DNA from: Caldicellulosiruptor acetigenus
GTDB taxonomy: Bacteria; Bacillota; Thermoanaerobacteria; Caldicellulosiruptorales; Caldicellulosiruptoraceae
Assembly: GCF_026914305.1 (NCBI RefSeq)
Contig: NZ_CP113866.1
Span: 2,173,501-2,237,500, forward strand
Direction of reading: 5' to 3'
Length of the DNA: 64,000 nucleotides
Of this stretch, positions 9,476 to 38,751 are shown in pieces; position 1 is the first letter of the stretch; each line of letters starts with the position of its first letter. A model generated the notes under the pieces. It was given only the letters and a program-made list of their open reading frames with translations, made no database searches and was not told where the DNA came from. The position numbers were made by a program, and so were the translations under genes.

Positions 9476-9641
9476 AAAAGTATCTTGCGCCCCCTTTTGT
9501 TTTTTTGCTCACATAATTTTCTTTCGAAACTTCAACACATAATTTTAATTCAACCGATGAAAATTTCAATTGAAAAAATAACCTGTAATTTTCTTTCCTT
9601 AAATTTTGGAAAATGATATGTTACATTTTTACAACAAAAGA

Positions 9642-35272: not shown

Positions 35273-36097
<825 letters not shown>

Positions 36098-36193: not shown

Positions 36194-36268
36194 CAGGGGG
36201 AGATGATTTGTGCAAATCTACTAAGTAGCTGCAAGGTAGAGGAAGCACTTTTTATTCTTCTCCCCCTG
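36194..36268. other. Stem-loop element proximal to nifH
   Basis: Perfect 10-bp GC-rich stem CAGGGGGAGA (36194-36203) / TCTCCCCCTG (36259-36268) enclosing 55 nt, with inner GTGC/GCAC pairing and a CTAC-TAA-GTAG hairpin. There is no T run on either side, so it does not look like a terminator. It lies 100-175 nt upstream of nifH, probably within its leader or promoter region. Strand of action is unknown. Confidence 0.5.
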
Positions 36269-36299: not shown

Positions 36300-36461
36300 A
36301 AAAAGGGCAACAGCAGACATCTAAGCCTTGTCATGACGATAACACATGGCAATGGCAGGCACAAAACACGCTATTCACTTTTTTTTAAAAAAGAGGGGCG
36401 CAAGAGACAAGGCAGAAGCTTTTTATTCAATTTGGGGGTGTTTTGGATGCCTGCTGTTGCC
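36300..36461 (-). ncRNA. Candidate structured RNA between glnB and nifH
   Basis: Read on the minus strand, segment A (36438-36461) can pair with segment C (36306-36321) over 16 bp including one G-U, followed directly by CTTTTTC. A second helix, GCCTTGTC/GACAAGGC (36406-36413 with 36325-36332), nests inside. Segment B (36348-36369) matches A over about 22 nt with two mismatches and a 2-nt bulge, so A could pair with B instead of C; alternatively the free CAAAACAC of A pairs with GTGTTTTG of B as a pseudoknot. It may be a terminator with a switch, or a stand-alone small RNA. I know no family it matches. Confidence 0.5.
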
Positions 36462-36491
36462 AAATTATAAACTCAAGGGGTAAGGGAAAGT

Positions 36492-36836
<345 letters not shown>

Positions 36837-36874: not shown

Positions 36875-38221
36875 TTACTTTACTGTCTGAGACTTCATTA
36901 CAAAGTCACTATACGCTGTTGCACCATGTTCTGCAACGTCAAGACCTTCTATCTCTTCTTCTTCAGAAACTCTGAGTCCAACTGTTATTTTGATGATTGC
37001 AAAGAGGATAAAAGCTGTCACAGTGGTCCATACAAATGTTGATGCAACACCAGCAAGCTGAACCAAAAACTGTTTTATTCCTCCACCATAGAAAAGTCCG
37101 CCATCTAGAGCAAAAAGTCCGACCATCAGTGTTCCAAAAGCTCCACATACGCCGTGCACAGAAATTGCACCAACTGGATCGTCTATCTTGAGTTTCTTGT
37201 CGATAAACTCAACAGCCACTACAACCAATATACCTGCAAGCCCGCCTATTATTGCTGCACCCCATGGGTTGACAGATGCACAGCCTGCTGTGATTGCAAC
37301 AAGGCCAGCCAAAGCACCGTTTAGTGTCATACTAACGTCTGGTTTTTTGTACTTTAGCCATGTGTATATCATTGCTAAGTTTGCACCCATCGCAGCTGCC
37401 AGGTTGGTGTTGACAGCAATATCGCCAATCTTTTCATTCATACCAGATAAGGTTGAACCTGGGTTGAATCCAAACCAACCAAACCACAATATAAACGTTC
37501 CAAGTGCTGCCAAGGTTATACTATGACCAGGTATAGCATTTACTTTACCATCTTTTGTGTATTTACCTATTCTTGGTCCAAGCAATGCAGCACCAATCAG
37601 AGCACTCCAACCACCAACAGAATGTACAACAGTAGAACCTGCAAAGTCGATAAATCCAAGTTTGCTCAGCCAACCGCCGCCCCATGCCCAGTGACCTACA
37701 ACAGGATAGATGATAAATGAAATTACAGCACTGTAAATGCAATACGCAATAAACTTTGTTCTTTCAGCCATAGCACCTGAGACAATTGTTGCAGCTGTTG
37801 CAGCAAACACTGTTTGGAAGATCAAAAATGATGTAAGCGGGATAGACAGGCCCAAGTGTTTAAATGAATCACTCAGGAAAAATCCAGACGTACCGATAAA
37901 CCCACCTGCGTCTTTCCCAAACATGAATGCAAATCCAAAGAGCCAGAATATCACAGAACCTATTGCAAAGTCCATTAAGTTTTTCATAACAATATTGCTC
38001 GCATTTTTTGCTCTGGTAAAGCCTGCTTCGACCATTGCAAATCCTGCTTGCATAAAGAACACCAAAAATGCCGTAACAAGAACCCAGACATTATCAACGG
38101 CAATTGCCACTTTATCGGGTGTAACCTGGTCTGCTTTTGCTATTGATGTAACAAGCAGCAAAGTTGCAATTGTCCCTACCGGGATTAAAAAGGCCTTGTA
38201 GTTTTTAATGAGTCTATTCAT
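36875..38221 (-). CDS. amtB: Ammonium transporter
   Basis: A 448-residue membrane protein with an N-terminal signal-like segment and eleven helices. Pore residues are seen in FMQAGFAMVEAGFTRAKN, the twin-His region in VVHSVGGWSALIGA and ISVHGVCGAFGTL, and the Phe gate near IFQTVFAATAATIVSGAMAER. It conducts ammonium into the cell. Co-location with glnK and the nif operon gives ammonium uptake and sensing upstream of nitrogen fixation. A GGAGGG ribosome site precedes the ATG. I could not assign a promoter in the upstream region. Confidence 0.95.
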   Translation of the reverse strand: MNRLIKNYKAFLIPVGTIATLLLVTSIAKADQVTPDKVAIAVDNVWVLVTAFLVFFMQAGFAMVEAGFTRAKNASNIVMKNLMDFAIGSVIFWLFGFAFMFGKDAGGFIGTSGFFLSDSFKHLGLSIPLTSFLIFQTVFAATAATIVSGAMAERTKFIAYCIYSAVISFIIYPVVGHWAWGGGWLSKLGFIDFAGSTVVHSVGGWSALIGAALLGPRIGKYTKDGKVNAIPGHSITLAALGTFILWFGWFGFNPGSTLSGMNEKIGDIAVNTNLAAAMGANLAMIYTWLKYKKPDVSMTLNGALAGLVAITAGCASVNPWGAAIIGGLAGILVVVAVEFIDKKLKIDDPVGAISVHGVCGAFGTLMVGLFALDGGLFYGGGIKQFLVQLAGVASTFVWTTVTAFILFAIIKITVGLRVSEEEEIEGLDVAEHGATAYSDFVMKSQTVK

Positions 38222-38398
38222 CTTTAAAAACCCTCCTTAAACCTAACTTTTTACTGATATACAACCTTGTTTCACTTGCCCTGCGCCCCCCTTTTCAAAG
38301 TAAAGATTCTCTGGTATAATGAAAAAGCACGCAATTTTTAAAAAGAGAAGATTGAAAAACTAAAGGTATATGGAGTCTGATAAAATTGGGTAATTAAA

Positions 38399-38437
38399 AA
38401 AGGCAAAGGCAACCTTTTGAAAGGCGCCTTTGCCTTT
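38399..38437. terminator. Orphan terminator-like hairpin upstream of amtB
   Basis: Perfect 12-bp stem AAAGGCAAAGGC / GCCTTTGCCTTT with a 15-nt loop, T6 on the minus side and CTTTCTTT on the plus side. No gene in the window reads into it from the minus side. It closely resembles the nif operon terminator at 26526-26566. The rest of 38222-38751 is AT-rich, and I see no gene in it. Confidence 0.6.
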
Positions 38438-38751
38438 CTTTCTTTATTCTCTTTGTTTATTCTCATTATATTCTTCATTTTGCAATTTGTCAATACCAAA
38501 ATTGCATTTTATTTTATATAAAGTTTCTAAGGTAATTTGTAATTGTTTTAGATATAGTATATAAAAAGTATGACATATTTGTATAATTTGTATTTAGTTA
38601 ATTAAGCCTTACAATACCTTATTAGTCGATTATTGCAGGATAATAAATTTGCAAGATATAATCCATCATAGTTAAATTTGAGTTAATTAATTTATTTTAA
38701 GGTTATGTTATAATGGTTAATAGAAGGAAAATAAAAAAGGAGTCAGCTGAG

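Follow-up and report, generated by a model that had tools for sequence, protein, structure and literature searches.

The 3′ untranslated region (3′-UTR) of the icaR mRNA of Staphylococcus aureus contains a UCCCCUG motif that pairs with the ribosome site of the same mRNA (PMC3868564). In Vibrio cholerae, OppZ and CarZ are autoregulatory small RNAs derived from 3′-UTRs (PMC7398697). Nitrogen genes, nitrogenase included, are subject to ANTAR antitermination (PMC3369931), and small RNAs are tied to nif expression in Methanosarcina mazei (sRNA154) and Pseudomonas stutzeri (NfiS and NfiR) (PMC11549558, PMC6606865). In Caldicellulosiruptor, NifA has been reported to be absent, and nitrogenase activity is lowered by ammonium, not abolished (PMC8209448).

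We analysed a window of 64,000 nucleotides from Caldicellulosiruptor acetigenus and focused on the region between glnK1 and nifH, which is a real conserved structured RNA, most likely with two jobs at once. By analogy, its attenuator part and its 3′-UTR/5′-UTR pairing part resemble known kinds of element. No Rfam riboswitch or RNA family scored at or above its gathering score in the region, and we found no description of the combination, or of this sequence family, in Rfam or in the literature searched. As in icaR, a Gram-positive mRNA has a C-rich 3′ motif that complements a ribosome-site-like sequence of its own leader. In contrast to icaR, the operon here is amtB-glnK, the site precedes a short leader open reading frame (ORF) instead of the main gene, the 3′ region doubles as the nif leader, and the pairing is a prediction from sequence. 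The likeness to OppZ and CarZ is that the 3′ part of an operon yields RNA able to pair with the operon's own beginning. Those RNAs are proven and are processed by RNase E, whereas a stable small RNA from our region would be hypothetical, and its candidate targets include another operon that is not linked to the first. The RNAs sRNA154, NfiS and NfiR, which we set apart by their descriptions and not by sequence, act in trans in other lineages, and nothing suggests a common origin.

The minus-strand order is amtB1, glnK1, a 397-nt gap, nifH, and then two more PII-type genes. The features of this setting are as follows.

38465..38493, minus strand: consensus sigma-A promoter of amtB1-glnK1, TTGACA-17-TATAAT (12/12 match)
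38395..38441, minus strand: terminator-like hairpin at the start of the amtB1 leader, just after the promoter (z −6.1)
36875..38221, minus strand: amtB1, ammonium transporter (TIGR00836, 477 bits)
36492..36830, minus strand: glnK1, PII protein (NF008111, 141 bits, under the curated cut-off of 202)
35273..36094, minus strand: nifH (TIGR01287, 471 bits)

Nif is present in 9 of 12 congeners, which fits the pattern described for Caldicellulosiruptor (PMC8209448). A NifH search of the genome contigs yielded only distant nif loci, and these were left out of the comparisons. We looked for a sigma-A-like promoter on the nif strand within the glnK1-nifH gap and found none. Sigma-54 was detected in 0 of 12 genomes of the genus, while the positive controls were detected; NifA-type control of nif from a sigma-54 promoter is therefore ruled out. 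Because the genus has no sigma-54 and no sigma-A-like promoter was found in the gap, read-through from amtB-glnK into nif is plausible.

ANTAR systems are alike in that a terminator/antiterminator choice is made in ammonium-transporter and nitrogenase leaders, and the genus has one ANTAR protein (L162 1474-2103). However, the pair of hairpins that defines an ANTAR target, with A1 and G4 in their hexaloops, was found in neither leader. The nif leader has no A1/G4 hexaloop hairpin, which rules out an ANTAR motif there, and the amtB1 leader has a single one, overlapping the terminator. This terminator-like hairpin (38395-38441) is strongly conserved, also in other genomes, including the second family described below, and holds an alternative GAAAGGC-AAAGGC-GCCUUUC whose hexaloop, with A1 and G4, is ANTAR-target-like, with no second hairpin.

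Competing helices in the nif leader

Folding of the 171-nt region gave −50.4 kcal/mol, against −32.5 ± 3.5 kcal/mol for shuffles (z −5.1). The segments discussed below are as follows.

36446..36461, minus strand: segment 1, GGCAACAGCAGGCATC, the shared 5′ arm, which pairs with b or c
36348..36369, minus strand: segment b, GTGTTTTGTGCCTGCCATTGCC, an imperfect competitor and antiterminator-like partner of segment 1
36300..36321, minus strand: segment c, GATGTCTGCTGTTGCC-C-TTTTT, the 3′ arm of a terminator-like helix plus U tract
36194..36268, minus strand: second hairpin, CAGGGGGAGA...TCTCCCCCTG, between c and nifH

Both alternative pairings proposed in the preliminary description are present: 36446-36461 pairs with 36306-36321 over 16 bp, including one G-U, with CTTTTTC directly after, and the helix of 36438-36461 with 36348-36369 contains two neighbouring mismatches and a bulge of 2 nt. 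Two accessory elements fared less well. An 8-bp helix (36325-36332/36406-36413) exists in this genome, but in the alignment it is lost or broken in most congeners and is confined to close relatives. The proposed pseudoknot between CAAAACAC (36445-36438) and GTGTTTTG (36369-36362) is a pairing that does exist and is invariant across nine congeners, but it is nested in both forms and thus forms no pseudoknot.

None of 150 dinucleotide shuffles equalled the combination of a 14-nt helix, a T-rich tail and a second partner for the same arm; the three-way arrangement scores 35 and 26, against shuffle maxima of 29 and 22. Conservation is stronger evidence for structure in the nif leader than these fold and shuffle statistics. 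Segments 1, b and c are letter-for-letter alike in 9 of 12 congeners, with the second base of c as the sole exception. From its third base on, c is invariant in all nine genomes, U tract included, and the nine genomes keep the identical two mismatches and 2-nt bulge of b. Four-fold site identity between the two clades is 0.57 for amtB, 0.62 for glnK and 0.65 for nifH.

When c is absent, the minimum free energy partner of segment 1 is b at both 37 and 70 °C (G000 and G005). When c is present, the probability of 1:c is 0.90-1.00 at both temperatures in all nine genomes. The two helices are mutually exclusive, as in an attenuator, with 1:b predicted before c is present and 1:c afterwards. The 16-bp 1:c helix, one base and five U constitute the stem and U tract of an intrinsic terminator. 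A simple terminator scan (loops of 3-8 nt) found none in the region because the arms of 1:c are at least 118 nt apart. Such spacing is unusual for intrinsic terminators and counts against the reading proposed below.

Compensatory changes in relatives, which the preliminary description had named as the check on its model, were found in two places, the second hairpin and the L:a pairing described below. In the hairpin at 36268-36194, 98.8% of cells are paired, compared with 28-58% in sliding controls, and three pairs are changed on both sides, all separating two clades. Covariation is absent from 1:c and 1:b because both helices hardly vary (23 of 24 pairs are invariant), which makes them uninformative in this respect; this may be because b and c share segment 1, so that single changes are costly. 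The suggestion of a switching RNA between glnK and nifH is borne out as far as conservation goes and in that one arm has two exclusive partners, of which one gives a terminator-like helix. Given the exclusive pairings and the lack of both a sigma-A-like promoter and sigma-54, control of read-through into nif is the simplest reading of the terminator/competitor part.

We also considered a small protein gene on the plus strand, overlapping the region and with an open frame ending ...MPAVAKL stop. In several genomes, 57-69 open codons lie ahead of MPAVAKL. However, indels interrupt this frame in G002, G004 and G007, and the conserved segments show no variation at third codon positions. Since the frame is not kept across genomes, we rejected this gene as largely refuted and barely credible.

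The block beside glnK

Comparison of the genomes takes the region beyond the preliminary description, in that its first 80 nt are separable and complementary to both ammonium-transporter operons.

36392..36469, minus strand: conserved block, TACAATTTGGCAACAGC...GCGCCCCTCT, 78-80 nt, directly 3′ of glnK

We identified 14 copies of the block: nine upstream of nifH, two extra copies (in G009 and G011) and three in a second family. The extra copies are flanked by glnK and urtA and lie over 8 kb away from the copy linked to nif. In the three genomes of the second family, the block follows glnK with no adjacent nifH and with unrelated sequence beyond. Where urt-ure genes part nifH from glnK (G009 and G011), b, c and the U tract stay with nifH. 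From the copies with urtA and those without adjacent nifH, the block appears to travel with amtB-glnK, and b, c and the second hairpin with nifH. Between the two families, the amtB1 proteins share 93-94% of their C-terminal 380 residues, and four-fold site identity is 0.53-0.54. Among 398 genomes from the phylum but not the genus, we found no wider relatives; three clear ones occur elsewhere in the class. We attribute the weak model matches at other genes (L107 and L115), and a short match to the beginning of a gene (L014), to chance or coding sequence. A pairing of segment 1 with segment a inside the block seemed possible, but it is weakened in the second family and was not retained.

The 16-bp inverted ends, together with a second block copy in two genomes, are features that a mobile repeat or miniature transposon with inverted ends would have. 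Against this, the C. acetigenus genome has a single locus, and the copies adjoin glnK or nifH only. With no copies at unrelated places, we rejected a mobile element, whose likelihood we regard as negligible.

Two further observations concern the block copies. The paired copies at about 1501-1580 in G009 (L012 and L007) and G011 (L013 and L006) share genome-specific bases in the variable stretch, as if by gene conversion, despite the urt-ure genes between them. Beyond the block in L010 and L106, the second family has a decayed reading frame that is transposase-like, apparently of the IS256 type.

Complementarity to ammonium-transporter mRNAs

Two C-rich segments of the block are complementary to the starts of ammonium-transporter mRNAs. 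The segments and the associated sites are as follows.

36392..36404, minus strand: segment a, CTTGCGCCCCTCT, complementary to amtB1 leader site L
38280..38292, minus strand: site L in the amtB1 5′ leader, AGGGGGGCGCAGG here and AGAGGGGYGCARG in most others
38243..38275, minus strand: possible leader peptide, GTG...TAG, 10 codons, between L and the amtB1 ribosome site
36429..36449, minus strand: segment s, CATCCAAAACACCCCCAAATT, able to pair with the amtB2 start codon and ribosome site

The sequence AGAGGGGYGCARG or a close variant is present in the amtB1 leader of all 12 block-bearing genomes and is complementary to CTTGCRCCCCTCT of the block. Duplex energy failed to single out L, as many G-rich sites in the window equal or beat it against the block; because energy ranking along the window did not discriminate, we compared uninterrupted helices. 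By this measure, L is the best partner of the block within ~3.2 kb upstream in 12 of 12 genomes, with helix scores of 29-36 compared with 21-27 for the runner-up sites. In the five genomes tried, shuffled blocks equalled the L match in 2-3 of 200 cases. The motif AAAAGRGGGGYGCARG occurs without mismatch at just two places in the genome, the block and the amtB1 leader. Most of segment a, like 1, b and c, is unchanged among the nine nif-linked genomes. In the L:a alignment, 97.8% of cells are paired. One pair is compensatory, C-G to U-A between families (U for C in the leader, A for G in the block), a change we regard as suggestive; the remaining differences are mostly G-U compatible. The covariation score of L:a, from seven distinct rows, was reached by 23 of 500 shuffles. 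The complementarity to the 5′ region of its own mRNA that marks a 3′-UTR antisense element of its own operon is thus conserved between L and a in 12/12 genomes. In each of the 12 genomes, putative short ORFs of 6-10 codons lie between L and the amtB ribosome site.

Segment a is also complementary to ribosome sites of sequence GGGGGCGCAAG, at 9484-9499 of the window (minus strand) and likewise at about 1501 in L194-L196. The genes with these sites are glycosidase-like and amino-acid-permease-like, and they are possibly further targets or chance matches.

These data bear on two other explanations. Copies of the motif at both ends of amtB-glnK, in inverted orientation, might be expected if the repeats AGAGGGGCGCAAG and GGCAACAGCAGGCA and their relatives were DNA operators of a nitrogen regulator for which orientation is irrelevant. 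We consider this highly improbable, as the nif strand has no nearby promoter, the amtB promoter is ~170 nt upstream of L, c is followed by an invariant U tract, and the differences between L and a are nearly all G-U compatible. The second explanation is an attenuator alone, in which 1, b and c act as a terminator/antiterminator or plain partial terminator and so fix the proportion of amtB-glnK to nif transcripts, and the matches to the amtB leader are chance or a coincidence of G-rich and C-rich sequence. The invariance of 1, b, c and the U tract in 9/9 genomes, the unexceptional block:L energies within the window, and the ease with which C-rich stretches can fit ribosome sites by chance all suit this explanation. 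However, it leaves aside the conservation of the block beside glnK without b, c or adjacent nifH, the rank of L as top partner in every genome, with a compensatory change, and the rarity of equally good matches among shuffled blocks. We therefore consider an attenuator alone somewhat unlikely.

The match of segment s to the amtB2 start is a 21-nt exact reverse complement (E = 3.6e-4 in its own genome). Besides itself, amtB2 is the only match of s in that genome below E = 1, and the next other match has E = 1.3. The ribosome site of glnK2, the next gene after amtB2, matches s over 15-16 nt; a 15-letter pattern fits it with a single mismatch. Of the 33 ribosome sites that we read in the window, none resembles the amtB2/glnK2 type. 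These start sites are equally conserved in genomes that lack the block, namely G003 and G008 (both sites) and G010 (amtB2), which are close relatives of G000. As they persist without the block, something other than the block must account, at least in part, for the conservation of these start sites.

We found no amtB2-type gene in the three genomes of the second family, and in two of these three s has drifted, while a and L still match. Outside the clade of the window, most genomes offer s a G-rich partner immediately 3′ of glnK. In G036, one of the two genomes with drifted s, a change from CCCCC to CCTCC in the s region is matched by a change from GGGGG to GGAGG just after glnK, which suggests that the s part of the block probably also forms a local hairpin there.

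Separately, ~37 nt of the amtB2 leader (L142, ~1500-1540), GGATATAGACTTTCAAAATAAAATTTGGGGG, recur at a second place in 12 of 12 genomes. The second place (L114, ~1484-1521) is upstream of rpsB and also lies directly behind a terminator hairpin.

That the block occurs between glnK and urtA, and in another family in the absence of nif, would also be consistent with an antisense or 3′-UTR RNA alone. In that case the block would be trans-acting or self-pairing for the ammonium-transporter operons, b and c would fold, protect or end the block RNA, and nif would be controlled elsewhere. The match of C-rich segments to ribosome sites and the close parallel of icaR (PMC3868564) point the same way. Yet b, c and the U tract are conserved like the block itself and remain with nifH in G009 and G011, where urt-ure genes separate it from glnK, and we judge an antisense RNA alone to be unlikely.

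Proposed mechanism

We tentatively read the region as a regulatory RNA of the amtB-glnK transcript in which a 3′-UTR antisense module is fused to a nif attenuator, a reading to which we assign somewhat less than an even chance. We infer that amtB1, glnK1 and the nif leader are transcribed as one unit. As polymerase passes, segment 1 would pair first with its imperfect partner b. The 2-nt bulge (UC) of 1:b would be the entry point at which the first bases of c (GAU) begin to displace b; that bases of c could pair with the bulge of the b helix, so that displacement could begin there, is our reading of the anatomy. The longer 1:c helix and five U would then end the transcript before nifH, and whatever holds 1:b or slows the exchange would let polymerase continue into nif.

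The C-rich segments s and a, predicted to be mostly unpaired in the terminated form, could pair with the starts of ammonium-transporter mRNAs. Segment a would pair with L upstream of the short leader ORF, either within a single mRNA, whose two ends would be joined in cis, or in trans. The partners of segment s would be the ribosome sites of amtB2-glnK2, an unlinked operon, and translation might be blocked there. Strong transcription of amtB-glnK would then damp the ammonium uptake genes.

An extension that we regard as quite unlikely is a single RNA circuit of amtB leader, block and nif attenuator, in which pairing of the amtB1 leader or the amtB2-glnK2 mRNA with a and s alters the choice of segment 1 between b and c. 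If this were true, the amount or translation state of transporter mRNA would set read-through into nitrogenase genes without NifA or sigma-54.

A conserved, apparently untranslated RNA may link ammonium uptake to nitrogen fixation in these organisms. A nif terminator joined to an antisense module against both ammonium-transporter operons would make the question of how the genus controls its nitrogenase directly testable, and the region would be a natural strand-exchange switch operating at about 70 °C.
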